Shown here piece after piece: positions 5,394 through 30,106 of a stretch of 30,106 nucleotides of DNA. The position numbers and the translations under genes were made by a program. Source of the stretch: a virus; the IMG/VR virus record IMGVR_UViG_3300047323_000690, positions 1 to 30,106 of that record. One strand, given 5' to 3'. Position 1 is the first letter of the stretch, and the number at the start of each line of letters is the position of its first letter. The notes beneath the pieces are model-generated. The model saw only the letters and a list, made by a program, of their open reading frames with translations, was not told the DNA's origin and searched no databases.

Positions 5394-7178
5394 TCAGGCG
5401 CCGGCGTCAGCCATGAAGCGCTCATATTCCATGCTGCCGGGAGCGTAGGGGCAATCGATAGCCGCTCGCCGCTTGGCCTGATCGGCAGCGGCGACCTCGG
5501 CGGTGGCCTTCGCGTTGTTCTGGTCACGAACGAGGTTGAGGAACCCGAGCGATGCGATCTCGGCTTCCGTCGGCCAGAATGCCATCACGACGGCATCGGC
5601 CTTGTTCGGCGATCTTGTTCCGGCCGGTTTCTTGTCGACGATGAGGCGGAGCGAACCGTCGACTCCACGCGTCGCCTGGCTCAATTCCTTCCGCAGCGAT
5701 GACAGGCCGGGCATTGTGCTGGGCAGACTGATGAGGTCGGCGGGGTCGTGGACCTCGCCCGCCGTGATCGCCTTGTGCGTGCGCTCGAAGCGGAGCCGCA
5801 ACTGCCACCAGGCCTGTGCCTTCAGGTTCTTGAACGCGTCCTTGTTCGTCGGCGTCTCGTCATCGCCGGGGACGAGGTGTTCATCCGGGCGGAGCGGCGA
5901 TGCGCCTGCATTCCACGGCTGGAAGGTGATTCCAGCTGGCAGCATGGGCTCGCCATTGTCGCCCGTGGTATCGCGCAGGCGGTTGGCCTCGGACTTCACG
6001 CCGGCGCCGACGCCGATCGAATCGTATTGCAGCGCAACCCTGCGGCCGCGCAAGCGATCGACGGCGCGGCGGGTCGCCATGCCGACATCGCCTTCGCCCC
6101 AGCCGTCGACCGAATGCAGGACAGAGCCCTTGGCGATTGCCAGAGCGTGGAGGTCGCCACCTTCGTCGGCGGGGTCGAGGCCGGCACGCCATGCCCCGGT
6201 ATCGTCGAATCCGAGCTTGATGTGAGCATCGATCGCGCTGGCGACCCAATCGCCGGGGATGATCACGCCCGCAACCGCCGCGGTATAGTTGCGGTCGACC
6301 TCCTGCGCGAAGACATGGAGCAGACCATCGGCATCGGCCTTCGCCCGCCGCGCCGCATACCATTCCGGGTCCTTCGCCGGATGGTCGCGCCAGTCCATCA
6401 CGAACACATTGACGCGATCAGTGGCGAGATCCTGGCCCGGCGCCCATTCCATGCCGGCTTCTCGCCGGCGGTGGAACACGTTGCCGGGACCATTCACCGA
6501 ACTGATATCGATCTGGACGTTCGTGGTATCGGCGAGCGCCGCCTCGATCTTTTCGGGCCGCTCGTAGTGCGCGGACTCGTCCTTGAAGTAGATCAGCTTG
6601 CGCCCGCCGCGTCCGATGTTGTCGCCGGATTCGCCGGTGATCGTAGCGCCCGTCTGCCGGTTGACGATCTTCATGTACGGCATGTCGCCGTCGGCATCGA
6701 AGCCGTGGGGCAACATAAGTCTGGGCAGATTGCGGATGACGATCCGCATTTTCTCGAAGATGCTGTCCGGGTCGCCGAGCTTGTCGACCAGTTGCTCTTT
6801 GCGGGAGCCCCAGCCGATCGATGCGCCGTCGCGGTACAGCCAGAGCCAGACCGAAAAGGCGCCGCAGACCCAAGTCGCGCCCATGTCACGCGCTTTCTCG
6901 ATCAGGCCGCTCTGCTGACCGTCGACGCAGGCGAGCAAGAACTCGACGAGCTCGCGTTGACGATCGAACATCACGAACGGAATGGTGGTCGGCTCGTCAG
7001 TGCTGGCCTTGCGAGGATCGTAGGTCACCGCCCAATGCAGGATCCAGGAAACCGGATCGTTGCTGTACCGCTCGGCGATCCCGGCCCGAAGCTCAGCATC
7101 TTCCTTGAGGCGCTTGATGCGGTGGATGCGGGTGGCGAACTCCGCCGCGTAATCCGGCGGCCATGGCCCGTTGGCCAT
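5394..7178 (-). CDS. terL: Terminase large subunit
   Basis: 594 residues. The packaging ATPase shows a variant Walker A, EKARDMGATW (residues 94-103), and a Walker B with DE, LIYFKDESAH (195-204). The RNase-H-fold nuclease part shows candidate metal ligands Asp335 (AGLDPADEGGD), Asp386 (LQYDSIGVG) and Asp529 (NKADAVVMAFWP). It should cut concatemeric DNA and pump it into the prohead through the portal encoded next. Its ATG overlaps the small-subunit stop by one base (TGATG), so the two are translationally coupled. Length and motif order are normal for the family. No anomaly is visible. Confidence 0.95.
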   Translation of the reverse strand: MANGPWPPDYAAEFATRIHRIKRLKEDAELRAGIAERYSNDPVSWILHWAVTYDPRKASTDEPTTIPFVMFDRQRELVEFLLACVDGQQSGLIEKARDMGATWVCGAFSVWLWLYRDGASIGWGSRKEQLVDKLGDPDSIFEKMRIVIRNLPRLMLPHGFDADGDMPYMKIVNRQTGATITGESGDNIGRGGRKLIYFKDESAHYERPEKIEAALADTTNVQIDISSVNGPGNVFHRRREAGMEWAPGQDLATDRVNVFVMDWRDHPAKDPEWYAARRAKADADGLLHVFAQEVDRNYTAAVAGVIIPGDWVASAIDAHIKLGFDDTGAWRAGLDPADEGGDLHALAIAKGSVLHSVDGWGEGDVGMATRRAVDRLRGRRVALQYDSIGVGAGVKSEANRLRDTTGDNGEPMLPAGITFQPWNAGASPLRPDEHLVPGDDETPTNKDAFKNLKAQAWWQLRLRFERTHKAITAGEVHDPADLISLPSTMPGLSSLRKELSQATRGVDGSLRLIVDKKPAGTRSPNKADAVVMAFWPTEAEIASLGFLNLVRDQNNAKATAEVAAADQAKRRAAIDCPYAPGSMEYERFMADAGA

Positions 7179-12632: not shown

Positions 12633-13561
12633 CGAGCCTGCGCCTCTCGCTCGGCGGCCTGCTTCGCGTCCTGCTCCTCGATCAGCCGACGGTTGCGGCG
12701 CATCGCGGCAATCGCGGCTTCGTCCTCGGCGTGCTTCTGGCGGACACGGCTGTCGAAGAACTTGAACGTGAACGGCGCCCGGCCCTTCGTCGCCATCTCG
12801 GCATCGGCGGCCTTCTCGACGATCGGGACGATGTCGCGCTCGAGCTCCATGTCGCTGAGCGCCAACCACTCCCACAGCAGGGCGACGTCGTTGGGCACGG
12901 CCACGAACCGGCCAACCTCCAAGATCCTGCGGACCTGCTCGGGCTGGCCAGCGAACTTGTCGGACTTCGGTGTTGTGGGGGTAGGGGGTATTGTCCCTGT
13001 CCCTGTCCCTGTCTTAGCCGTGACTGGTGGTGTGACCGGCGTGACAGGTTTCGTGACATCTACCGTGACATGTCGCGTGACAAGCGCCCGAAGGTCACTC
13101 GTCTTCGTGTTGTACTCTGGCGTGACCCCGACCGCGCGCAATTGCTCGAACATGCGCTTTCGGTCTTCCCGCTCACGCTCCTTGCGCGCGGCTTCGCCGG
13201 TCTTTTTATCCTTATATTCCTGACGCATCGGTAGAGCTTCGAGCGCCTTTTCGGCCACCACAGGGTGGTAGAGACGGCCATCGCTGCACTTGATCCAATT
13301 GCGCAGCGCGACGGCTTTGACTTTCTTCCAGCGCGACCCGGCGCCCGACAAAAATGCCAGCACGCGATCGTCATCCGGCAAGCTCCCTGCCGGGACTTGC
13401 TGCCAAGCCTTGCACCAAAGCGCGAATGCACTTTTGAATTCTTCGCCCGTCGACATCGCAAAAAGATCGCTGTCGACGACGCGGATCGTGTCCATCGGCA
13501 TGAATTGCAGGCCGCGCAAATCGCAATCCGCGGGTGTCAGGGGTGCGGGAAGGTCGGTCAA
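12629..13561 (-). CDS. DUF1376-type phage replication protein (TTG start)
   Basis: 310 residues. The N-terminal ~95 residues match DUF1376: PLTPADCDLRGLQFMPMDTI, FKSAFALWCKAWQQVPAGSL and ADDRVLAFL-like text. This domain is frequent in phage replication modules beside DnaB, where such proteins are thought to recognise the origin or load helicase. A charged helix (KEREREDRKRMFEQLRAVG) leads into a Val-Thr repeat linker (residues ~160-185), then a C-terminal domain with WEWLALSDMELERDIVPIVE. I chose the TTG at 13561 because AGGGGG lies about 8 nt upstream and the conserved N-terminus needs it; it overlaps the DnaB stop (TTGA). The next ATG at 13501 would cut the domain. The linker DNA carries iteron-like repeats. 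Confidence 0.83.
   Translation of the reverse strand: MTDLPAPLTPADCDLRGLQFMPMDTIRVVDSDLFAMSTGEEFKSAFALWCKAWQQVPAGSLPDDDRVLAFLSGAGSRWKKVKAVALRNWIKCSDGRLYHPVVAEKALEALPMRQEYKDKKTGEAARKEREREDRKRMFEQLRAVGVTPEYNTKTSDLRALVTRHVTVDVTKPVTPVTPPVTAKTGTGTGTIPPTPTTPKSDKFAGQPEQVRRILEVGRFVAVPNDVALLWEWLALSDMELERDIVPIVEKAADAEMATKGRAPFTFKFFDSRVRQKHAEDEAAIAAMRRNRRLIEEQDAKQAAEREAQAR
13040..13082. repeat. Four CGTGACA heptamers with 12-bp period inside the DUF1376 gene (possible origin iterons)
   Basis: CGTGACA occurs perfectly at 13040, 13052, 13064 and 13076, exactly 12 bp apart, with a near copy CGTGACT at 13019 and a partial GTGAC at 13032. On the coding strand each copy contains GTC ACG, so the protein repeats Val-Thr every four residues. 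Iterons inside a replication initiator gene are known from lambda O. Nearby at 12992-13013 is a short TGTCCC tandem run. Repeats are direct observation; origin function is inference. Confidence 0.55.
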
Positions 13562-15000
13562 TTGTGCCCCCTGGAACTGAAGAAATTGGAGCCGCGCACA
13601 GCCTGGTGCTCAGCGAAATAGTAGCAGTTGCGCTTGCCGACCCTGCCGTTGCGGACCTTGGCGGCGATCAACTCGACGCGGTCGCGCGCCGCGGCCAAGT
13701 TGACCTCCCAATCGGCGCGCTTCTTGTCGTGGATGTCGGGCTCGGCGCGCTCGAGGTAATATTGCTCGCGGTAGACGAAGAGCACGACGTCCGCGTCCTG
13801 CTCGATCTCGCCGCTGTCGCGCAGATCGGACAGCACCGGTCGTTTGTCTTCCCGGCGCTCCACCTCGCGGTTGAGCTGGGCGAGCAGCACGATGGCCACG
13901 TCCAATTCGCGAGCGATCTGCTTGATGGTCCGGCTGACCTCGCTGACTTCCTCATACCGCTTCACCTTTGAGCCGTCGGCTTTGACGAGCCCGAGGTAAT
14001 CGATGAACACGATGTCGAGGGACCGGCCCTTGGCGGCCATCTGGCGCTTGTAGCGGCGAATCATCATGGCGAGACGACCGACGCGAAGCCCCGCATCTTG
14101 GCGCAGCACCATCGGCCATGACTTGAGCGCTTCGCGCGCATCGGCGACGCGTTCACGATCGAAGGCGCTGAACTTGCCGGCCTTCACATTGTCGAAGCTC
14201 GCGGATTCGCCATAGCGGAAGATGATGTCTGTGATCGCGCGCTTCATCAGCTCGGGCACGGACATCTCGAGGCTGATGAACAGCGTCCCCCAGCCGGCGC
14301 GCGCGGAAGCCAGCGCGGTCGAGAGCGCCATCGCCGTTTTGCCCATGCTGGGGCGGCCGGCGAGGATGATCACTTCGCCGCGGCGGACGTTGCCGGTCAG
14401 GCTGTTCCAGTCGTCGAGACCATCGACGGCTAGCCCGGGCGGTGCATCGCCGGCGGCTTCGTCCTCGATCTCCTTCATCGTGACGTCCCACGCCTTGCCG
14501 ATGTCGAAGCTCTTGCCGACCTCCTCTCGCTGCAGGGCGGCGGTGAGTGCGGCGTCGAGCCCATCAGCGAGCGCTTCGACCGGTTTGGACAGATCGTCGC
14601 GCGCGGCGTCGAGGAAACCCTGCAGGCCAGCGTAGAGCCGGCGGCGCTTGGCCAGGTCAGCGATTTGCTTGGCGAAGTCGTTGGCACCGATCAGCCCGGC
14701 GCCGGATCCTGTCAGGCGCGCGAGATACCCCGGGCCGCCTAATTCAATCACCGCCGGGTCGGTTTCGATGAACGGACGCAGGGTCACCGGCGTCGCGAGG
14801 CGCCCGTTGGCGATCTCGCGTTCGATGAGGGAGTAGAGCCTTCCGTGGAACGGCTCGAAGAAATCGTCCGCGCCGACGATATCGCCGACGCGGTCAAGCA
14901 CGCGGTTGTCGATCATCAGCGCGCCGAGAAGGCCCGCCTCGGTCTCGACGTTGGCGATCGGGTAAGCCTCGGCGGGCCGGATTGGTTCGCTCGCCATCAT
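13558..15000 (-). CDS. dnaB: Replicative DNA helicase, DnaB family
   Basis: 480 residues. An N-terminal DnaB domain (NVETEAGLLGALMIDNRVLD, residues 17-36) is followed by the RecA-type helicase core: Walker A GRPSMGKT (215-222), ISLEMSVPELMKR (242-254), Walker B DIVFIDYLGLV (329-339), and AQLNREVERREDKRPVLSDL with DSGEIEQDAD (375-404). It should unwind DNA ahead of the phage fork as a hexamer. It precedes the DUF1376 gene and overlaps it by 4 bp, and its start overlaps the upstream stop (ATGA). Length and motif order are standard for DnaB. Clear identification. Confidence 0.96.
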   Translation of the reverse strand: MMASEPIRPAEAYPIANVETEAGLLGALMIDNRVLDRVGDIVGADDFFEPFHGRLYSLIEREIANGRLATPVTLRPFIETDPAVIELGGPGYLARLTGSGAGLIGANDFAKQIADLAKRRRLYAGLQGFLDAARDDLSKPVEALADGLDAALTAALQREEVGKSFDIGKAWDVTMKEIEDEAAGDAPPGLAVDGLDDWNSLTGNVRRGEVIILAGRPSMGKTAMALSTALASARAGWGTLFISLEMSVPELMKRAITDIIFRYGESASFDNVKAGKFSAFDRERVADAREALKSWPMVLRQDAGLRVGRLAMMIRRYKRQMAAKGRSLDIVFIDYLGLVKADGSKVKRYEEVSEVSRTIKQIARELDVAIVLLAQLNREVERREDKRPVLSDLRDSGEIEQDADVVLFVYREQYYLERAEPDIHDKKRADWEVNLAAARDRVELIAAKVRNGRVGKRNCYYFAEHQAVRGSNFFSSRGHN

Positions 15001-19137: not shown

Positions 19138-19191
19138 CGCCTGAAATATGCTCACATGCATAGTTCGTCAAACGAAATATGCATTCAGGCG
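19138..19191. promoter_or_regulatory. Immunity operator region between cro-like and repressor genes
   Basis: The core operator TATGC-TCACAT-GCATA lies at 19147-19162. It is nested in an outer inverted repeat, CGCCTGAA at 19138-19145 with TTCAGGCG at 19184-19191, and beside TTCG-N5-CGAA at 19164-19176 and a half site TATGCAT at 19178-19184. On the minus strand TTGACG (19171-19166) is a good -35 for the cro-like gene, and the operator falls in its spacer, so a bound repressor would shut that promoter. A weaker TATGC-N5-GCAT at 19216-19229 touches the repressor ATG. Confidence 0.78.
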
Positions 19192-19227
19192 TTAGCGCAG
19201 CCGCCCCGCCTCATTTATGCGTCAGGC

Positions 19228-19911
19228 ATGGCCGGAACGATCCTTTCTCAGAACATCATCGCGCTCCGAAAGCACTTGGGCCTCAACCAGGCGCAATTCG
19301 GCGAGTTGATGAAGTCCGATCAGACCAACGTCTCGCGCTGGGAGAGTAAGGGAGTTGTGCCCGGAGGTGTGCCATTGGCGAAGATCGCCGAGCGCGCAAA
19401 GACGACGGTCGAGCAATTTACGTCCGCCCCGTGGCATCCGCCGCAGAAGGCGTCAGCTCCGTCCGATCATCAACCGACGCGGTCGATCGATGCCGGCGAA
19501 ACTGCTACGGTCATGCGAATGGACCTCTCCTACGCTATGGGTCCTGGCACCAATATCGACGAGGATTATTTCGAGGGCGAGCCGGTCGAACTGGACATCA
19601 GCTTCCTGCGCCGCCTCACGCCATCATCGCCGGACATGCTGCGCATCGTGAACGGCGCGGGCGATTCGATGCAGCCGACAATTCACGACAGCGAGGAACT
19701 GATCCTGGATCTCGGGCAGCGCACGCTGAATATGCAAGATAGGATCTGGGCCATTTCCCTCTACGGGGTCGGTGCGGTCAAACGGTTGCAAGCCAGCGGC
19801 AAGGGGCGTGTGCTGGTCGTCAGCGATAATCCCGACGTGCCGAATCGCGAGGTCGATGTCGAGGATATCATCATCGTCGGCCGCGTCGTCGGGTCGATCC
19901 GGCGCCACTGA
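19228..19911 (+). CDS. CI-type phage repressor with S24 autopeptidase domain
   Basis: 227 residues from the ATG at 19228; the frame is open to 19096, but that would run through the operators. The N-terminal XRE helix-turn-helix (IIALRKHLGLNQAQFGELMK, then TNVSRWE; residues ~10-39) binds DNA. The C-terminal LexA/CI-like S24 domain has the nucleophile Ser147 (GAGDSMQPTI) and the general base Lys185 (GVGAVKRLQ). An Ala-Gly pair at 89-90 could be the self-cleavage bond, so the prophage is probably SOS-inducible through RecA. It diverges from the Cro-like gene across the operators and is followed 7 bp later by a HIRAN gene. Family identification is strong; the cleavage site is inferred. Confidence 0.92.
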   Translation: MAGTILSQNIIALRKHLGLNQAQFGELMKSDQTNVSRWESKGVVPGGVPLAKIAERAKTTVEQFTSAPWHPPQKASAPSDHQPTRSIDAGETATVMRMDLSYAMGPGTNIDEDYFEGEPVELDISFLRRLTPSSPDMLRIVNGAGDSMQPTIHDSEELILDLGQRTLNMQDRIWAISLYGVGAVKRLQASGKGRVLVVSDNPDVPNREVDVEDIIIVGRVVGSIRRH

Positions 19912-19918
19912 CACTTCG

Positions 19919-20326
19919 ATGCCGCAACGGGCGCTTTCGTTGGCGGTGGTCGGCGCCAACCACGCGAACAAGAAGGGGCCGACCCGGCGGTTCGCGATTT
20001 CGCTGTGCCGACCGGGCGACCCTGTCGCCCTGAAACCGGAACCCAAGAACGCGAAGGACGAGCGCGCGATAGCCGTATTCTCCCGGGAAGGCGTGCAGAT
20101 GGGCTACCTCACCGCGGAACGCGCACCATGGATTGGTGCGATGCTCACGCAGGGCAGGGAGGTGCAGGTCGTCTTTCAGCGATCGACCCAGTGGGGATGC
20201 TGGATCCGCGCAGCCTTCGACGGCGAGCGGCCATCGGTAGGAGGCTTGGACGCGACTCCGGGAGAGAACGAAGAACGCGAGAGTGACCCGGACTGGTACC
20301 CTGATGAGGTATATCCGGACGAATAA
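19919..20326 (+). CDS. HIRAN-domain protein co-transcribed with the repressor
   Basis: 135 residues. SLAVVGANHANKKGPTRRFA, then DPVALKPEPKNAKDERAIAV and GVQMGYLTAERAPWIGAMLT give the HIRAN pattern (a VVG start, the EP.N..D..AIAV core and a GYL ending). HIRAN domains bind 3' single-stranded DNA ends in HLTF/Rad5, and stand-alone bacterial ones are largely uncharacterised. The last ~30 residues are acidic (PGENEERESDPDWYPDEVYP). It starts 7 bp after the repressor stop, so it is likely expressed in the lysogen. It could sense stalled forks or modulate repressor induction, but this is a guess. Confidence 0.8.
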   Translation: MPQRALSLAVVGANHANKKGPTRRFAISLCRPGDPVALKPEPKNAKDERAIAVFSREGVQMGYLTAERAPWIGAMLTQGREVQVVFQRSTQWGCWIRAAFDGERPSVGGLDATPGENEERESDPDWYPDEVYPDE

Positions 20327-20329
20327 AAT

Positions 20330-20374
20330 TATGCTCACATGCATTTTATGCTTGCTGTTATGCATATGAGCATA
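20330..20374 (+). promoter_or_regulatory. Second repressor operator cluster before the rightward early operon
   Basis: TATGCTCACATGCAT at 20330-20344 is the same 15-mer as at 19147-19161. TATGC-ATATGA-GCATA at 20359-20374 is an inverted copy with one change from the 15-mer. A half site TATGC lies between them at 20347. The two centres are 29 bp apart. A -10-like TATAGA at 20373-20378 with TTGCTG at 20352-20357 could form a promoter with a short spacer. The first gene of the rightward operon starts at 20425. Confidence 0.75.
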
Positions 20375-20424
20375 TAGAAGGTCTTCAACAGCCCCATTGG
20401 TCCGGGCGCTGATGGAGACACGAA

Positions 20425-20820
20425 ATGGGCACCGCCCAACATTTCACCCCGGAAGAGATCGCGCTGGCGAACTGGCTGGCCGATGACGAAGCGAAGTCGA
20501 TCCTCCGCAGCTGCGCGCTGAATGCGCCGCGCTTCGAGCACCGCGCCGAAGTCTATGCCCTGACCCGCGACGATCACTACGAACCGGTCGGCACCCGCCG
20601 TGACAGGCTCTACGCGATCTGGACCCGCTACAGCGATCAGGTCCACGCCCATTGCGACGCAACTGGCGACTATGCGCTGTCGGAAGCCTTCCATCTGTTG
20701 CCGCGTCCGAACGAGGCGATCGAGCAGGTTATCTCTGCCGCTCCGCTGATCCGGACGATCGCCATCATCGCCAAGCATCGCGACCCGGTTGCGGCTGGGC
20801 AGCGGGCGAGGGCGGCATAA
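20425..20820 (+). CDS. First gene of the rightward early operon, unknown function
   Basis: 131 residues with GGAG about 7 nt before the ATG. It begins MGTAQHFTPEEIALANWLAD. It is mostly helical: a first part LADDEAKSILRSCALNAPRF, a middle YALTRDDHYEPVGTRRDRLY, and IRTIAIIAKHRDPVAAG at the end. No domain is recognised. The first rightward gene after the operators should be expressed strongly on induction, so it may be an early regulator or host-takeover protein, which is positional reasoning only. Confidence 0.75.
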   Translation: MGTAQHFTPEEIALANWLADDEAKSILRSCALNAPRFEHRAEVYALTRDDHYEPVGTRRDRLYAIWTRYSDQVHAHCDATGDYALSEAFHLLPRPNEAIEQVISAAPLIRTIAIIAKHRDPVAAGQRARAA

Positions 20821-21119
20821 TGGGCGCGCCGGGAACCACCGACGGCCCTTGGATGGTCGAGCCGATCAACGACGGCGAAACCTATCAGGTCACCACCGGC
20901 GAGAGGACTGGGTTCGTGGTGATATGCGAGACCGAATGGGGCGGTGCAGAGGCCGAGGCAATCGCACGCCAGTTGGCCGCGTCGCCCGACCTATACGACG
21001 CGCTGACCGGCGCCGAGGAATTCATCGCCGGTTTCGAAGGCGACGACACCCAAGCTGGTGTTGATGGCCTGCTCGCGTCGATCCGCGCCGCCATCGCCAA
21101 AGCGCGCGGTGAAGCATGA
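20820..21119 (+). CDS. Small protein, unknown
   Basis: 99 residues from the ATG that overlaps the preceding stop (TAATG). GPWMVEPINDGETYQVTTGE, then FVVICETEWGGAEAEAIARQ and ASPDLYDALTGAEEFIAGFE resemble a widespread phage small-protein pattern in which a beta strand portion leads to AEA..A..IA.SPDL...L helices. Its role is unknown. It ends with a helix (LLASIRAAIAKARGEA) whose codons overlap the next start. Confidence 0.77.
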   Translation: MGAPGTTDGPWMVEPINDGETYQVTTGERTGFVVICETEWGGAEAEAIARQLAASPDLYDALTGAEEFIAGFEGDDTQAGVDGLLASIRAAIAKARGEA

Positions 21120-21532
21120 ACACCGTCACCCCCATCGCAGCCCAGGCGCCCACCACGATCGCCCCAACGATCACCGCGTACCTGATCCTCAACAACCTCA
21201 AGGCCCGCCAGATCGACGTCGCCGAGCGCGCGATCGACACAGCCGCCGCCGAGGTCGCGGCATCGGTCCCGCACAAGTCCACCTTCGTGCTGGTCGTCGA
21301 CGATCCCCGCACCGGCGGAACGCTGACCCATTGGTTCGCGGTCAAGCGCAAGTCGAAGGCGCGCTGGGTCACCGTCGATCACGTCACGCGCGCTGTGCAC
21401 GACACCTATCCGGAGCATCTGTTCTCGCTGGAGACGGAGGCTTTCGAGCCTGCGCGGCCGTGGGGCTGGGCGCCGGGGGCGGATGTTGTCGGGCGGGGTG
21501 GCGATCTCATTGAACAGGGAGCTTCGCGATGA
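21116..21532 (+). CDS. Small protein, unknown
   Basis: 138 residues, ATGA-coupled to both neighbours. NTVTPIAAQAPTTIAPTITA is a low-complexity lead. NLKARQIDVAERAIDTAAAE looks helical and STFVLVVDDPRTGGTLTHWF beta. Then come FAVKRKSKARWVTVDHVTRA and a Gly/Pro-rich end. No family is recognised. Codon use is like that of its neighbours. Confidence 0.7.
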   Translation: MNTVTPIAAQAPTTIAPTITAYLILNNLKARQIDVAERAIDTAAAEVAASVPHKSTFVLVVDDPRTGGTLTHWFAVKRKSKARWVTVDHVTRAVHDTYPEHLFSLETEAFEPARPWGWAPGADVVGRGGDLIEQGASR

Positions 21533-21765
21533 GCCGCCGCCCACCAAGCCCGCAAGTGCTGCAGCGGCAGTGCGACGAGTTCAACGCTCGCTACCCGGTC
21601 GGGCAGACCGTCAGCATCCGCAAGGACGGTGGCGACGGGATCATCACAAAGACGCGCTCCGAAGCCCAAGTGCTATCCGGGCATTCCGCCGTCATCTGGC
21701 TGGACGATGTCTCTGGCTGCTACCTGCTTGATCGCGTCACGCCGATCACGGGCGGTGCGGCATGA
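21529..21765 (+). CDS. Small SH3-like protein, unknown
   Basis: 78 residues. A helical start (PQVLQRQCDEFNARYPVGQT) leads to strands: VSIRKDGGDGIITKTRSEAQ, then SAVIWLDDVSGCYLLDRVTP. That is the shape of small phage proteins with a KOW/SH3-like barrel (variable charge, VGQTV...V.W...). The function is unknown. Both ends overlap neighbours by 4 bp. Confidence 0.72.
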   Translation: MSRRPPSPQVLQRQCDEFNARYPVGQTVSIRKDGGDGIITKTRSEAQVLSGHSAVIWLDDVSGCYLLDRVTPITGGAA

Positions 21766-22112
21766 GCGCCGCCGGCGTAGCCGAGGCGGGCGTGCTGGCG
21801 TCTGCTGCTGATCTGATCGAGGTCGAAGGAGCTTGGACGCAAAGGGTATTCGCCCGCAATGCCGAGGGAGAGGAAACCGGCCTGTCGGAGTGTCGCGGAC
21901 CAGCGGTTTGTTGGTGCGCACTCGGCGCGATCAGCAAAATAGCGGGCAACGACGATCTCCTTGTAGAGAGGGCCGAATATGCGCTGATGCGGCTTCTCAG
22001 GTGCGAAGTCGATGGTATTGCAAACTGGAACGACGCCCCAGAGCGCACCCAAGCCGAAGTAGTAGCCAAGCTGCGTGAAGCCGCTGCCATCGCACGGGAG
22101 CAGGGCAAATGA
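21762..22112 (+). CDS. DUF6197-like protein
   Basis: 116 residues. LIEVEGAWTQRVFARNAEGE, then PAVCWCALGAISKIA and DGIANWNDAPERTQAEVVAK with LREAAAIA fit the DUF6197 pattern (a WC.LGA core and a WND...RT..EV..L..AA ending). Members are common in actinobacteria and phages, with no known role. It is ATGA-coupled on both sides. The assignment is by eye. Confidence 0.72.
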   Translation: MSAAGVAEAGVLASAADLIEVEGAWTQRVFARNAEGEETGLSECRGPAVCWCALGAISKIAGNDDLLVERAEYALMRLLRCEVDGIANWNDAPERTQAEVVAKLREAAAIAREQGK

Positions 22113-22324
22113 CCACGCTCCCCCTCGACAAAGCCCTCGAACGCTTCGACGCGGCGGTCCTGACCTGCCCGTTCAGCTGGACCCCGAGGCTAGCGCCCAA
22201 CGAGGCATGCCCGCAATGCGGCGCGACACGGCGCGAGGCCTGCGCTCGGCAGACCCGGGCGGCGTTCGATGTCGTCGCCAGCGCGCGGGCTCTGACCAGT
22301 CCGATCGGAAAGGCACTCCAATGA
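22109..22324 (+). CDS. Small protein with Cys motif, unknown
   Basis: 71 residues. LDKALERFDAAVLTCPFSWT, then NEACPQCGATRREACARQTR: two CxxC-like Cys and further Cys residues suggest a zinc knuckle. The end is helical (AAFDVVASARALTSPIGKAL). ATGA-coupled at both ends. No family is recognised. Confidence 0.7.
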   Translation: MTTLPLDKALERFDAAVLTCPFSWTPRLAPNEACPQCGATRREACARQTRAAFDVVASARALTSPIGKALQ

Positions 22325-22557
22325 GCCCGTTGCGCGCGGGGATACACCCCGACCAGATGCCAGCGGTCACGCCGTTTGACACGCCACGTCCCCTTGACCG
22401 GCATCATTCGCTCCATTGCTTTGCATGCGGCGGGGCAATCGGCACCGTGACATGCTGCTGCACGACCTATTCGTTGTCGAGGGACGCGCTAGCCAACGCT
22501 CTCGCATGGGCGTTCCGCGATGGCGCGACCGTGGTGCAAGCAGGCCGCAAGCAATGA
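22321..22557 (+). CDS. Small Cys-rich protein, unknown
   Basis: 78 residues from ATG 22321. RHHSLHCFACGGAIGTVTCC with CCTTYSLSRDALANALAWAF: the CFACGG and TCCCT Cys residues could bind metal. Codons of its stop overlap the next start (ATGA). Reading from the alternative start at 22075 would overlap two other genes, so 22321 is chosen. Confidence 0.66.
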   Translation: MSPLRAGIHPDQMPAVTPFDTPRPLDRHHSLHCFACGGAIGTVTCCCTTYSLSRDALANALAWAFRDGATVVQAGRKQ

Positions 22558-22697
22558 GCGCGGCGCAGTACCTTTGCGGCGTTGTCGCGATTGTCGGTTC
22601 GCTCGGCTGGGCGCTGTACGCGATCCTGTCGACCGTGATCCCGGCGGTTCCGAAGATTCGGCGCGCGTTGCAGGGGCGGGGAGGGGTCGATGTCTGA
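22554..22697 (+). CDS. Very small single-span membrane protein
   Basis: 47 residues from ATG 22554. AQYLCGVVAIVGSLGWALYA with ILSTVIPAVP is a membrane segment, followed by a basic tail KIRRALQGRG. It overlaps the previous stop (ATGA) and the next start by 8 bp. A basic cytoplasmic tail suggests the N-terminus lies outside. No function is recognised. Confidence 0.68.
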   Translation: MSAAQYLCGVVAIVGSLGWALYAILSTVIPAVPKIRRALQGRGGVDV

Positions 22698-23667
22698 CCC
22701 CATTATCACCCAGGCCGGGGCATATCCGGAGATCAGCGCGGAGGATTACCACCGCGCGGCGAACCTGCTCCCCGGCCCGTCGCTGTCGTCATCCGGCGCG
22801 AAGCTGATCCGCGCCCGGTCGCCGTATCATTTCTGGTTCGACAGCCCGATGAATCCAGAGCGGCCGCCGGAGAACGACAAGGCGCATTTCAACGTCGGCA
22901 AGGCGGCGCACGACATGCTGCTGCTGTCGGATCGCTGGCCCGAGCATTACCATGTGCTGCCGGAAGGGTTCTCCGAGGCTAAGACGAAGGTGATGGCGAC
23001 GGCCATCGCTGCGGCGGCGGAAGCGCGCGAGGCAGGCAAGACAATCCTGCGTCATGAGGATCACCAGATCGTCGGGCAGGTCGCGGCGGCAATTCGCCGC
23101 AACGATATCGCCCAAGCTGCGCTTTCGTCGGGCATCCCGGAACTAACGCTAGCCTGGCAGGACCCCGAAACCGAAGTCTGGCTACGCGCGCGCCCCGACT
23201 TCTTGCCTTTCAGCGTCCACCAGGATGGCCGCGACATCATCGTCTCGGACCTCAAATTCGTGGCGCCTCAAAACGCGACGCCGACCGGATTCGGCAGGGC
23301 CGTGGAGAAATTCGGGTATCATCAGTCCGCCGGCTTCTACGCCGACGGGATCAAAGCGATCTACGGGCGTTACCCGACGCACTGGCTGCATATCGTCGTG
23401 GAGAAGGAGGCGCCTTGGTGCGTCGCTCTCTACGAATTGCCCGCCGAGGATCTCGAGCGCGGCCGCTGGCTGAACCGGGAAGCGGTCCACACCTTCGCCT
23501 ACTGCCTCTCGACCGGGAAATGGCCGGGTTACGCGGACGAGCCGATGCCGGTCGGTCTGACGCCTTGGGCGCGCAAGCAAATCGACGACACCGAGGGACA
23601 TGAGCTCGCCTGGCGCGGGACCGCGAAGTCCGACGTCGAGAACACTTTCATGCAGGAGCATTATTGA
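22690..23667 (+). CDS. RecE-like exonuclease (PD-(D/E)XK, DUF3799 type)
   Basis: 325 residues of the RecE/exonuclease VIII-like family. Seen motifs are GKAAHDMLL (His74, the G-x3-H nuclease helix), RARPDFLP (Asp170), IIVSDLKFV (Asp187, Lys189) and YHQSAGFYADG (Gln212). Together they form a PD-(D/E)XK metal site that should digest one strand of linear duplex DNA from the 5' end, leaving 3' overhangs for the RecT-like protein encoded next. The pair is ATG/TGA coupled. The family usually has about 300 residues and this one fits. The domain call is confident; polarity comes from the family. Confidence 0.9.
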   Translation: MSDPIITQAGAYPEISAEDYHRAANLLPGPSLSSSGAKLIRARSPYHFWFDSPMNPERPPENDKAHFNVGKAAHDMLLLSDRWPEHYHVLPEGFSEAKTKVMATAIAAAAEAREAGKTILRHEDHQIVGQVAAAIRRNDIAQAALSSGIPELTLAWQDPETEVWLRARPDFLPFSVHQDGRDIIVSDLKFVAPQNATPTGFGRAVEKFGYHQSAGFYADGIKAIYGRYPTHWLHIVVEKEAPWCVALYELPAEDLERGRWLNREAVHTFAYCLSTGKWPGYADEPMPVGLTPWARKQIDDTEGHELAWRGTAKSDVENTFMQEHY

Positions 23668-24587
23668 TGGCTACCCAAATCGCAACGACCGAAGACCAGC
23701 CGAAGACGCCGGCCAAGGTCGCCGTGAACGCTGGCGGAAAGCTCGCCGCGTTCGTCCCCAACAGCCTCGAAGAAGCCTGGCGCTTGGCCGGCGCGCTGGC
23801 GGCCTCTGGCATGACGCCCAAGGCTTATGGTGGCGACCAGAACAAGATCATGGTCGGCATCATCGCTGGCGCCGAAGTTGGCCTGACGCCCTTCGCAGCG
23901 CTGCAATCGATCGCGGTGATCGGCAACAACCCGTCACTGTGGGGCGATGGCGCATTGGCCTTGGTTCAGGCGTCGGGACTGCTCGACGACATGGAGGAAA
24001 CCGACGACGGCGACGAAGCGACGTGCCGGTTGAACCGCCAGGGTCGCAAGACGCCGATCATCCGCACCTTCAGCATGGAGGATGCCAAGAAGGCCGGACT
24101 GGCCGGAAAGGCAGGACCGTGGACACAATATCCCGCTCGGATGCGCCAGATGCGCGCGCGGGCTTTCGCGTTGCGTGACGGCTTCTCCGACGTGCTCAAG
24201 GGCCTGCACATTGTGGAGGAGGCTCGGGACTATACGCCGATGGGCGCCGCGATACCCACCGCGACCCCGCTGTCTGCCGCGATGATCGTCGATCAGGCTC
24301 GGATCGGCCAGGGTGAGGGCAACGACGGCACCCTCGCGCCCGGCAACACTTCCGCCGCCGAAGGCCCGTCCGACGAACAACGCGGCGAGCAGCACAACGA
24401 CACCGACCAGAGCCCCGCCGACGACCTGATCGCGCGGATCGAAGCCGCCGCCATCATCGGCGACGTGCTCGGGATCGAGCAGTCCTACCAGGCCGGCGGT
24501 CGCGAGATGTTCGAGACGCCGGATCAGGATCGGATCGAGACGGCGATTGCCGAGGCAAAGGCGCGGCTGAAGGGAGGCGCGAAGTGA
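23667..24587 (+). CDS. recT: RecT-family annealing protein
   Basis: 306 residues from the ATG at 23667 (GGAG about 10 nt upstream; a TTG one codon earlier is less likely). The core, PNSLEEAWRLAGALAASGMT, then IIAGAEVGLTPFAALQSIAV, NPSLWGDGALALVQASG and the YPARMRQMRARAFALRDGFS stretch with DVLKGL, is the RecT-type single-strand annealing pattern of phage homologues. The C-terminal third is acidic and low complexity, with a last helix. It should anneal overhangs made by the preceding nuclease. Clear phage recombination pair. Confidence 0.9.
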   Translation: MATQIATTEDQPKTPAKVAVNAGGKLAAFVPNSLEEAWRLAGALAASGMTPKAYGGDQNKIMVGIIAGAEVGLTPFAALQSIAVIGNNPSLWGDGALALVQASGLLDDMEETDDGDEATCRLNRQGRKTPIIRTFSMEDAKKAGLAGKAGPWTQYPARMRQMRARAFALRDGFSDVLKGLHIVEEARDYTPMGAAIPTATPLSAAMIVDQARIGQGEGNDGTLAPGNTSAAEGPSDEQRGEQHNDTDQSPADDLIARIEAAAIIGDVLGIEQSYQAGGREMFETPDQDRIETAIAEAKARLKGGAK

Positions 24588-25176: not shown

Positions 25177-25802
25177 TCCTTATTCCAGAGATCGAGACGG
25201 TGGTGATCTTGAACCCACGGACCGGCAGCAAATCGCTGAGGAAGGCCATTGCCGCCCGCTATTCCGATGCCATGCAGATTTACCGCCACATGGAGGCCGA
25301 TGGCGTGCCCTACGGCTACGATCGCTGGAGGCGTATCGGCGTCGTGCGCGACCCCATCGATCGGCTGTGGAGCCTCTACCGCTATCTCAAATGGATGGGC
25401 GGGGAGCGCAACGGGCGCGGGAAGTGGGAACCGACGTATGTCGAGCGCCAGCGGGCCAGCGTCGCGATACCGTTCGATCAATGGATAACCGACAACCAAG
25501 TCGTATTCACGAGCCCCTACGATTCGGCCACCGGTTCCAAATTCTATCCAGGCTTCGCGGTTCGTCATGCGCTGCCAGAGAACCGTAAGAGCCAGTTCAT
25601 TTATCTGCGCCCCGATCTTGGAACGGAGGTGTGGCAATTTCACGCGCTTCACCATCTCGCGGCCGAGCTCGGCGTCGAACTTGGCGAAGAAAATAGGAAC
25701 CTAGCCGAAGCGCCGCCTCCGCTTTCGCAGCCTGCGCTCGCCCATATCGAGAGGTTCTTCGCCTGGGACCTAGAAGTTGCCGGCCGGAAGGTTGCGGCAT
25801 GA
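25173..25802 (+). CDS. Sulfotransferase-like protein
   Basis: 209 residues with a GTG start and GGGGAGGG close upstream, overlapping the previous stop (GTGA). VVILNPRTGSKSLRKAI (residues 10-26) matches the 5'-phosphosulfate loop of PAPS-dependent sulfotransferases, and RIGVVRDPIDRLWSLYRYL (54-72) the 3'-phosphate loop, with Arg59 and Ser67 in the conserved RDP..R..S order. The C-terminal FIYLRPDLGTEVWQFHALHH with LAAELGVEL is like their end. It should move sulfate from PAPS to an unknown acceptor (sugar, lipid, protein or base). It is shorter than most. It is ATGA-coupled to a HerA-like ATPase, an unusual partner. The acceptor is not predictable; a kinase-like P-loop is less likely given the RDP motif. 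Confidence 0.75.
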   Translation: MILIPEIETVVILNPRTGSKSLRKAIAARYSDAMQIYRHMEADGVPYGYDRWRRIGVVRDPIDRLWSLYRYLKWMGGERNGRGKWEPTYVERQRASVAIPFDQWITDNQVVFTSPYDSATGSKFYPGFAVRHALPENRKSQFIYLRPDLGTEVWQFHALHHLAAELGVELGEENRNLAEAPPPLSQPALAHIERFFAWDLEVAGRKVAA

Positions 25803-27493
25803 GCTCGCTAGGCACCACCGACGCGGGCGAACCGCTGTCGATCGATCTCGACGCCCTCGTCGGCTCTCACGCATGCGTCGTCGCCAATAGCGGCGGCGGC
25901 AAGTCCGGCCTGCTCCGGCGCCTGCTCGAAACCACGCACGGCAAGATCCAGCACATCGTGTTGGACATAGAGGACGAATTTTACACCCTTCGCGAACACT
26001 TCGATTACGTGATCGCCGGCGGCGATGGCGGTGACGTCCCCGCAACCGTGGAAGGGGCGGCGGGTCTCGCACTTGCCGCCCTGACCCATGGCTTTTCGCT
26101 GATCGTCCAATTGAACGATCTCGGCGAGGACGCGCCGGAGTTCGTTGGCCGGTTCCTGACCGCGCTGATCGGCGCCCCGCGCAACCTCTGGCATCCTTGC
26201 CTGGTCGTGGTGGATGAAGTGCAGAATTTCGCGCCGACCGATCGGGTTACCGCGGCGACGCCGGGCGTGAAGAAGCTTACCGGGCAGGGGCGCAAGCGCG
26301 GGTTCACCGCCATCCTCGCCAGCCAGCGCATCAGCAAGATCAGCGCGGACGTGCGCGGCGACATCAACAACTGGATGCTCGGCCGCGTCGGTCAGACACT
26401 CGATCGCGACATCATGGCGGACCAACTCGGCTTCACGCGCGCGCAAGGCCGGGAACGGCTGCGCATGGCGGATCGGACCTTTTGGGGGTTCGGGCCGGCG
26501 ATCGCGAGGGAGCCGGTGCTGTTCTGGGTTGCCGATGTTGAGACGACCCTGGTCAAATCGGGGCAGGCTAAGGTGCCGACACCGCCGGCGCCGGAGGCTT
26601 TGCGGGCGATCCTGTCGGGGCTGGTCGTTCCGAGCGCCGAACTGGACGCGACTGACGATCTCGACACCAAGCTGTTGCGCGGCGCCGAGGTCCGCCAACT
26701 CCGCGAAGCACGTGACGCCTTCGAGCAGCGAGCGCTTCGAGCAGAGGACATGCTCGGAGAATTCATCAGCGCACATGGGCTCTACGAACAAGCGCTCAAC
26801 GGTTTTGCCGACACGCTGAAATATGGGCACGCGATCAGCTTCTCAGCCGACCAGCATTTGAAGGAACACGGGTGGACATCACCCAACGAAATCCCCGGGA
26901 ATCGGCCCGGCGGAGGCCCAAGCGGAGACGCAGGGCAAACAGCGGAACCAGCGGCACCCGTGCCGGCTGCTCCAAGGGCGACGGCTCCGGCGCCAGCGGC
27001 ACGAACCGCAACGGAGAAGGCGGGCGGGGGTAATGCCTCGCCCGCCGACCTCAACGGCATCGCTCAAACCATTCTCGCCAATCTTCGTCTGATCTGGCCT
27101 GCGCGTCTGACCTGGCAACAGGCTGCGCAAATGGCAGGACGATCGCCGAAGAGCGGGCCATACTTTGCCGCCAAGAAGCAACTGGTCGCAGCCGGGGTCG
27201 TGGAGACCGATGAGGTTCAGGTCTGGGCTTCCGGCTCGCACGACAGGGGCCTGACCCGCGAAGAAGCGATCGACGTTTGGCGCAATGTTACCGAAGGGTT
27301 CGCGCCCCGCATGCTTTGGGTCCTTGCGGATGACAAGCAACGCACCCGCGACGAGCTCGGCGCTGACATGAGCGTCTCAACCAAAAGCGGGCCGTGGTTT
27401 GGCGGCCTTAAGCAGCTTCGCGAGCGCGGGCTGATCACCGAGGCGGGCAACGTGCTGCGGTTGGCTAATCCACTGCCGGGTGAACGGGCATGA
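25799..27493 (+). CDS. HerA/FtsK-type ATPase with tandem C-terminal winged helices
   Basis: 564 residues. The DUF87/HerA-like motor has Walker A VVANSGGGKSGLLRRLL (residues 27-43), VLDIEDE (54-60), Walker B CLVVVDEVQNFAP (134-146) and an arginine-rich GRKRGFTAILASQRISKIS segment. Residues ~240-340 look coiled, then a Pro/Ala linker (~360-405). The C-terminus has two similar winged-helix units sharing a KSGP-[YW]-F signature at ~451 and ~529: WQQAAQMAGRSPKSGPYFAA and LGADMSVSTKSGPWFGGLKQ. It should form a DNA translocase ring. HerA partners are usually NurA nuclease or defence effectors; here its neighbours are RecE/RecT and a sulfotransferase. It starts by overlapping the sulfotransferase stop (ATGA). 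Confidence 0.87.
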   Translation: MSSLGTTDAGEPLSIDLDALVGSHACVVANSGGGKSGLLRRLLETTHGKIQHIVLDIEDEFYTLREHFDYVIAGGDGGDVPATVEGAAGLALAALTHGFSLIVQLNDLGEDAPEFVGRFLTALIGAPRNLWHPCLVVVDEVQNFAPTDRVTAATPGVKKLTGQGRKRGFTAILASQRISKISADVRGDINNWMLGRVGQTLDRDIMADQLGFTRAQGRERLRMADRTFWGFGPAIAREPVLFWVADVETTLVKSGQAKVPTPPAPEALRAILSGLVVPSAELDATDDLDTKLLRGAEVRQLREARDAFEQRALRAEDMLGEFISAHGLYEQALNGFADTLKYGHAISFSADQHLKEHGWTSPNEIPGNRPGGGPSGDAGQTAEPAAPVPAAPRATAPAPAARTATEKAGGGNASPADLNGIAQTILANLRLIWPARLTWQQAAQMAGRSPKSGPYFAAKKQLVAAGVVETDEVQVWASGSHDRGLTREEAIDVWRNVTEGFAPRMLWVLADDKQRTRDELGADMSVSTKSGPWFGGLKQLRERGLITEAGNVLRLANPLPGERA

Positions 27494-28694: not shown

Positions 28695-29114
28695 ATGACC
28701 GTACATTGCCCTGTCACGCTGCCGGACCTTGAGCGCCGCCTTTCGCGAAAGATCGAGGCGCACAAGGGCATCCAGCTCACACCGGAGGAGCTTGACCTGT
28801 TGGTGTTGTCGGGAGCCTATGAGGTCTTCCGCCAAGCCGTCGCCGAATATCAGAGGGACCAATGCCTGCAACGAAGCGCCCGAAGCCGCTCTATCAGCGC
28901 GGAGAATTCCGACTCTACCGGCGAGCCGATCGAGATGCCCTCGAAATCGTCTGGTACGATGACGCCCGAAAGCGGGAGCGAAGCCGCAGCGCGGGCACGA
29001 CGATCGAGGGGGAGGGGCGCATCGAGCTCGACAACCTCTATGTCGAAAAGCACGGCGGCGTCCCGCACTGCCGGACGTGCGGCCAACCCCTCAAGCAAGA
29101 AAGCGAACGGCTGA
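28695..29114 (+). CDS. Small protein overlapping the integrase start; C-terminal part uncertain
   Basis: The frame gives 139 residues from ATG 28695 (AGGA about 7 nt upstream). The first ~55 residues look like a real protein: VTLPDLERRLSRKIEAHKGI, then LTPEELDLLVLSGAYEVFRQ and AVAEYQRDQ. From about residue 56 on, the frame overlaps the integrase gene by 253 bp and becomes Ser/Ala/Arg-rich low complexity, as expected from an out-of-frame reading. The true product is therefore either long with a disordered tail or a shorter domain. No family is recognised. It resembles small phage proteins placed directly before an integrase. Confidence 0.55.
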   Translation: MTVHCPVTLPDLERRLSRKIEAHKGIQLTPEELDLLVLSGAYEVFRQAVAEYQRDQCLQRSARSRSISAENSDSTGEPIEMPSKSSGTMTPESGSEAAARARRSRGRGASSSTTSMSKSTAASRTAGRAANPSSKKANG

Positions 29115-30106
29115 CGGTGCTGATCGCGAATTATCTTGAGACGTTCGCGCCCAAGCACGCAGTGCATCCGCGGTTGGGGCACGTGCTCGACTATCTCGAG
29201 GCAAAGGGAAAGAACGAGGAACGCGCGGACCGGATCGACGAAGATTGGGTGAGCGAGTTTCGCACCTGGTCCGCCGCCGAGCCGATCATCCTCTCCGGCG
29301 GCAAGGTCCGCGCCGAACCGCGCGCGCCGGCGACCACTGAAGGCAGCCTGTTGCAGCTTGCCGCGGCGATGCGATTCGGCGGCGTCGATCCCGCGTTCAA
29401 GCCGATGAAGCCCGCCGAGGTTGCGCGCACGCCCATGTTCCGGTCGTCGGTGGAGCAGATCGCCGCGATGTTCCGGTTCTGCCTCTATCCGGCTGGCCCG
29501 ACCGCGCGGACGGAGAAGGAACGCGATTACCGCCGGCGCGAGCGGGCCAACCTTCTCAGGTATCTCCGCGCTGCCGTCGTCACATGGGCGCGACCCGATG
29601 CGATCATGGACATCGATACCCGCCGCGAGCGTCGGCAGTGGCATAGCGACGCCAGAGTCCTTGCGCTCAATCCCGCCGGCCGCCGGCAGACGAGGAAGCG
29701 GCGGGCAACGATCGTCGTCGCCCGCCAGTTCGCGCCGCATCTCGACGCCACTGTCGGCCCGTACATTCCGGTCAACAGCGTGAAGTCGTCATGGGAGACC
29801 ATGTCGGCTGAGCTGAAGCTGCCCGGTGAAGGCGAGGCCGGAATGAAGCTGATTCGCCGGTCGATCATGACGATCGCGCGGAAGCGGCTGGGCGAGGAAC
29901 ACTGGATCCAGGGCAAGATGTTCGCGGGTCACGTGCCGATGGAGATCAGCGACATCTACGCGCTGCCGGACCCTGCGAATCTGGGTCTGGCGCTGGCTGT
30001 CACGGAGGAAATTGTCGACGAGATCGAGGCCCTTTGCCCGGGCGCTTACCGCACGTTTACCGCGGAGGGCAGCAACGTCGTCACCATCGCGGGAGCAAAA
30101 AGGTGA
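28862..30106 (+). CDS. int: Tyrosine-recombinase integrase
   Basis: 414 residues from ATG 28862 (AGAGGG upstream); the stop is the last codon of the window. The N-terminal part (KPLYQRGEFRLYRRADRDAL, and DDARKRERSRSAGTTIEG) is the arm/core-binding type. Catalytic residues seen are Arg244 (TWARPDAI, the T.xR..E box), Arg332 in KLIRRSIMTIARKR, where the usual box-II His is Lys or Met here, His357 in GH, and Tyr366 in SDIYAL nine residues later. It should insert and, with an excisionase, remove the prophage. No att site is visible; it should lie just beyond the right edge. Family confident, active-site details by alignment to motif. Confidence 0.92.
   Translation: MPATKRPKPLYQRGEFRLYRRADRDALEIVWYDDARKRERSRSAGTTIEGEGRIELDNLYVEKHGGVPHCRTCGQPLKQESERLTVLIANYLETFAPKHAVHPRLGHVLDYLEAKGKNEERADRIDEDWVSEFRTWSAAEPIILSGGKVRAEPRAPATTEGSLLQLAAAMRFGGVDPAFKPMKPAEVARTPMFRSSVEQIAAMFRFCLYPAGPTARTEKERDYRRRERANLLRYLRAAVVTWARPDAIMDIDTRRERRQWHSDARVLALNPAGRRQTRKRRATIVVARQFAPHLDATVGPYIPVNSVKSSWETMSAELKLPGEGEAGMKLIRRSIMTIARKRLGEEHWIQGKMFAGHVPMEISDIYALPDPANLGLALAVTEEIVDEIEALCPGAYRTFTAEGSNVVTIAGAKR

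Follow-up and report, generated by a model that had tools for sequence, protein, structure and literature searches.

Candidate operators of a lambda-type switch on both sides of viral CI and HIRAN genes, and their covariation with the repressor DNA-binding domain among relatives

The short palindromes flanking the adjacent CI-like repressor and HIRAN genes of this virus are, judged from the sequence, very probably the operators of a lambda-type switch, i.e. candidate sites for the virus's own CI at two regions, here termed OR and OL. The same layout appears to be retained by relatives in one bacterial order, among which the DNA code and the part of the protein that reads it seem to have been swapped together, in about 14 versions. 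The window analysed is the whole virus record, a linear stretch of 30,106 bp that may itself be a fragment. From left to right it carries a leftward operon, the left palindrome cluster, CI, HIRAN, the right cluster and a rightward operon (Table 1).

Table 1. Candidate operator sites, candidate promoter elements and predicted genes around the switch region
Feature	Position	Strand	Details
DnaB-like replicative helicase, leftward operon	13558-15000	-	phrog_19, E 1.8e-82
Cro-like HTH gene, 66 residues	18936-19136	-	HTH_3, E 1.1e-9; heads the leftward early operon
OR1	19147-19162	none	TATGCTCACATGCATA; strongest site of the left cluster; centre ~74 bp 5' of the CI ATG
Candidate -35, leftward PR-like promoter	19164-19169	-	TTGACG, read from sequence; between OR1 and OR2
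OR2	19178-19193	none	TATGCATTCAGGCGTT; 8/10 arm bases; centre ~43 bp 5' of the CI ATG
OR3 candidate	19216-19230	none	TATGCGTCAGGCATG, TATGC-N5-GCATG; degenerate; covers the CI ATG
CI-like repressor, N-terminal HTH and C-terminal S24 peptidase-like domain	19228-19911	+	Peptidase_S24, E 6.5e-12
HIRAN-domain protein	19919-20326	+	PF08797, E 1e-9; 38.5 bits versus a cut-off of 24.7
OL1	20330-20345	none	TATGCTCACATGCATT; one mismatch; starts 4 bp past the last base of the HIRAN stop
Candidate -35, rightward PL-like promoter	20352-20357	+	TTGCTG; aligns with the TTGACG region of L156
OL2	20359-20374	none	TATGCATATGAGCATA; 29 bp from OL1
Rightward early operon	20425-24587	+	exonuclease VIII (22690), RecT-like annealing protein (23664); phrog_412, E 1.5e-76, phrog_561, E 7e-38

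The initial annotation had placed the motif TATGC-N6-GCATA at 19147, 20330 (with one mismatch) and 20359, with a 15-base core, TATGCTCACATGCAT, identical at the first two; the positions are exact and the shared core is present. A scan of the full 30,106 bp, allowing at most one mismatch, returns these three matches and no others, compared with a mean of 0.25 sites in dinucleotide shuffles, none of 100 of which contained three. Two further sites escaped that first reading, namely OR2 at 19178, which lies 31 bp from OR1, and a probable OR3 at 19216. With these additions the sequence probably holds three sites in OR and two in OL, adjoining the candidate early promoters.

The divergent Cro-like HTH gene and CI share the intergenic operator region. 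CI also matches the transcriptional repressor family phrog_4 (E 4.4e-30), and its GDSM serine and later conserved lysine predict an S24 domain of the autocleavage type. The leftward operon, in which the Cro-like gene comes first, includes terminase, portal, methyltransferase-like and DnaB-like helicase genes. By gene content, and with the promoters as candidates, the recombination genes are found beyond OL and the replication genes beyond cro. Within the rightward operon, the protein encoded at 25799-27493 (+) matches HerA-type DUF87 and Zot-like families and a PHROG annotated as terminase; the record has a second terminase match, at 5394-7178. A 414-residue open frame that runs to the end of the record (28862-30106, +) has no PHROG match. 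As for the promoters, the CAA complementary to the leftward -35 is invariant across an eight-locus alignment and the -10 candidate is weak, while the rightward -10 candidate, TATAGA at 20373-20378, leaves a short spacer. A simple sigma-70 consensus scan of the region gave no promoter match, and the hexamers of the record are weak.

Relatives were gathered with CI, HIRAN and CI C-terminal domain queries, giving 188 loci with some overlap among them; loci from named genomes belong almost without exception to Sphingomonadales, and in most of the 188 a CI relative lies 5' of HIRAN, 0 to ~2 kb away. Removal of near-duplicates left 104 CI-HIRAN loci, counting the record itself. When the 140 bp on the 3' side of HIRAN were compared with the upstream DNA, their best repeat fell just 5' of CI in 77 of the 103 testable loci; a control stretch taken further downstream gave this result in 3. 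A palindromic site of 15-18 bp, whose sequence varies, is common to the CI-start and HIRAN-end zones in 78 of the 104 loci; the OL zone was searched from -12 to +140 relative to the HIRAN stop, and the first OL site starts at -8 to +31 nt. These 78 loci are selected for similarity, because operator extraction seeks likeness between the two zones. Each locus's own motif gives 329 hits in the zones versus 28 in the remainder of 640 kb, a comparison that is only descriptive since the thresholds derive from the same sites. The best-repeat search with its control stretch, and a motif built from OL sites only, are the less circular tests.

Across classes, the OL-only motif picks up OR sites near positions -77 and -43 relative to the CI ATG; the former distance is partly set by choice, because the main site was taken into account in assigning start codons. 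Smaller peaks occur near -18 and -8. In the record it scores OR1 at z 6.4 and OR2 at z 4.5. An alignment of eight members of the class shows conservation at OR1 and OR2, and most of the sequences have another conserved block covering the start codon of CI. The OR3 candidate of the record has an N5 spacer and is not significant by the N6 motif; an N6 site occupies the OR3 position in L243 and L244. Depending on the class, the main sites are mostly 29-34 bp or 22-25 bp apart.

In 26 of the 104 loci, no paired site was seen within 140 bp of HIRAN. Both of those followed up have OL-type sites further downstream (L165 and L148, ~290 bp and 2.3 kb past HIRAN), showing that the interval from HIRAN to OL can likewise take up extra DNA; the others include a group with a different-looking CI. 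In four Sphingomonas loci (L018, L020, L042, L050), a CI-like gene beside HIRAN has a conserved palindrome, TAGGAAATNCCCTA, on its 5' side, and a search for a paired site after HIRAN found none; this CI-like gene is possibly a domesticated regulator.

The CI N-termini of the paired loci fall into 14 clusters with distinct operators, including ACACC-N6-GGTGT-type, GTAGG-N6-CCTAC, TTGCGATAATCGC-type and TGTGCA-N5-TGCACA sites; the largest cluster holds two operator types. In Mantel tests, operator sequence correlated with the CI N-terminal domain (0.389; reached in 0 of 2000 permutations) and with the divergent Cro-like gene (0.408; 0 of 2000), but not appreciably with the CI C-terminal domain (0.053; 106 of 2000) or with HIRAN (-0.045). 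Likewise, the nearest neighbour belongs to the same N-terminal cluster in 71 of 78 loci by operator and 75 of 76 by Cro, as against 15 of 78 by C-terminal domain and 23 of 78 by HIRAN. The closest relative of the record by operator, CI N-terminus and Cro is L156, and by CI C-terminus L003. Since the operator tracks the N-terminal domain and Cro, not the C-terminal domain or HIRAN, cro, OR, the CI N-terminus and OL constitute a matched set, of which OL is parted from the rest by independently varying DNA.

That the repeats are chance similarities, or boundary sequences of recombination with no regulatory role, is scarcely credible. In favour of such a reading, mosaic exchange does occur at these borders, as is seen from the C-terminal domain and HIRAN being common to classes with different operators; against this, the chance expectation is 0.25 sites, and the repeats are palindromic, lie beside candidate promoters, occur two or three times with regular spacing and have class-specific sequences. 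Binding by a host regulator rather than a phage protein, to which AT-rich palindromes could in principle be suited, is just as improbable: no positive evidence for it was found, and the viruses of one bacterial order carry many motifs that track the phage's own HTH genes, whereas a host factor would favour a single motif.

A closer competitor, though still very unlikely, is that the palindromes serve the Cro-like protein alone, with CI acting elsewhere or via another motif. The Cro-like family tracks operator class no less closely than the CI N-terminus, and because the CI N-terminus and Cro themselves covary (0.443), computation does not separate CI from Cro as the binder. The CI N-termini, however, covary equally tightly with the operators, the distance between the sites and the CI start codon is fixed in many classes, and in the record no other motif repeated between both zones stood out. 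An OL/OR pair read by a cognate CI is the favoured reading.

A second search, seeded solely with the Cro proteins of the record and L156, returned L156, L195, L196, L197 and L243-L246. In all of these, TATGC- or TATTC-type sites adjoin the start of cro (OR), on the CI side wherever a CI was recognised, and in L195, L196, L197, L245 and L246 a further site or site pair lies beyond CI (OL); the L243-L246 loci are only ~3.2 kb long, and L195 is possibly a duplicate of L196. At that place the motif is absent from the more distant Cro hits L198-L200. The initial annotation had proposed an OL/OR pair through which one repressor controls both early operons; positional conservation with sequence covariation among relatives, together with the Cro-seeded search, argues strongly, on comparative grounds, for that proposal, which was incomplete in that OR comprises two or three sites and the Cro-like protein also covaries with the operators.

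In the proposed mechanism, the N-terminal HTH of CI would bind OR (19147, 19178 and probably 19216), which separates the divergent CI and cro genes, and also OL (20330 and 20359), just past HIRAN. In a lysogen, both early promoters would be blocked, the leftward one serving cro, replication and later structural genes and the rightward one the recombination genes, while a promoter within OR would drive CI and HIRAN; the Cro-like protein probably recognises these operators too. We infer that the sites are bound and the early promoters repressed, and that the CI promoter is activated from OR2 and shut off by OR3. More speculatively, CI at OL may also stop transcription leaving HIRAN, there being little or no gap between the HIRAN stop and OL. 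A terminator scan 3' of HIRAN gave hits in 12 of 78 loci versus 1 by shuffling, but these were rejected as terminators because most resemble the operator palindromes themselves.

HIRAN is retained beside OL across many operator specificities, and it may be that its product is more than cargo and forms a working part of the switch, sensing DNA ends or stalled replication and adjusting repression or induction, with CI at OL terminating its own operon; we regard this proposal as unlikely. HIRAN is not required for the operator pair, since L195, L196, L245 and L246 have no match to HIRAN, nor to this CI C-terminus. The profile of one alignment of the HIRAN proteins (A1) matches HLTF HIRAN structures (E 1.9e-5). 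The proteins of this alignment also share a conserved acidic C-terminal tail (WPDE/PDD), outside the matched Pfam stretch.

Between CI and HIRAN, 56 of 78 loci have 0.25 to 2.1 kb of DNA; the record itself has no cargo gene there. The genes in this interval are diverse and, by PADLOC or Pfam matches, partly defence-like, with matches to HEC-04, PDC-M66A/B, PDC-M24B, PDC-S42, a PemK-like protein, KilA-N and an acyltransferase; some entries in the underlying ORF list are probably spurious. Candidate defence or toxin-like genes (PDC-M66A/B, PDC-M24B, HEC-04, PDC-S42, PemK-like) occur in the interval in L033, L048, L133, L135, L010 and L162.

The immunity region of phage lambda is ordered OR - cI - rexA - rexB - OL, with cro divergent from cI; recombination genes follow beyond OL and replication genes beyond cro. 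Several features are shared: related operator sites lie on both sides of the repressor, cro is divergent from cI, the mirrored record reads cro - OR - cI - accessory gene - OL - recombination genes, and a putative repressor site is centred ~43 bp 5' of the cI start, near to where lambda OR2 lies relative to PRM. In the lambdoid heteroimmunity groups (434, 21, P22), repressor N-terminus, Cro and operators vary as a matched set, as the operators do here with the CI DNA-binding domain and Cro. By contrast with lambda, HIRAN occupies the rexAB position, two OL sites are seen rather than three, the main sites are mostly spaced by 29-34 or 22-25 bp, the OR3 candidate overlies the CI start codon, OL begins at most ~30 bp from the HIRAN stop without a clear terminator, and many distinct HTH clusters are carried on one C-terminal scaffold. 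As with prophage defence genes beside the repressor, e.g. lambda rexAB, the accessory genes are co-directional with CI, in a position expressed in the lysogen; the slot here, however, is found in the CI-HIRAN interval and is occupied by many unrelated genes, none of them in the record.

In cluster A mycobacteriophages, differences between motifs reportedly correlate with those between repressors and define immunity, and elongation can be blocked by repressor bound inside a transcribed region (PMC6550527). Motif differences appear to follow repressor differences in both systems. The stoperators of those phages comprise as many as 30 sites, mostly away from promoters (PMC6550527); here, by contrast, the palindromic sites are few and confined to two operator regions, and the CI C-terminus does not track the motif.

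A DNA-level search of known phages with the region gave no match, and CI relatives in known phages are below 32% identity. A HIRAN-bearing phage from human faeces (L191) was rejected as a relative, its context being unrelated. Literature searches on HIRAN with phage repressors found nothing, and those on HIRAN with prophages and on Sphingomonas prophage operators apparently nothing on this arrangement at the level of titles and abstracts. The switch mechanism is of a known kind, and this CI-HIRAN family was not found described in literature covered mostly at that level.

The ~14 naturally matched combinations of repressor, Cro and operator on a shared scaffold are useful for testing how HTH proteins choose their DNA, and how two operators stay matched across a stretch that is freely exchanged. 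The slot beside the repressor in Sphingomonadales prophages is, in addition, marked as a place of candidate defence genes.
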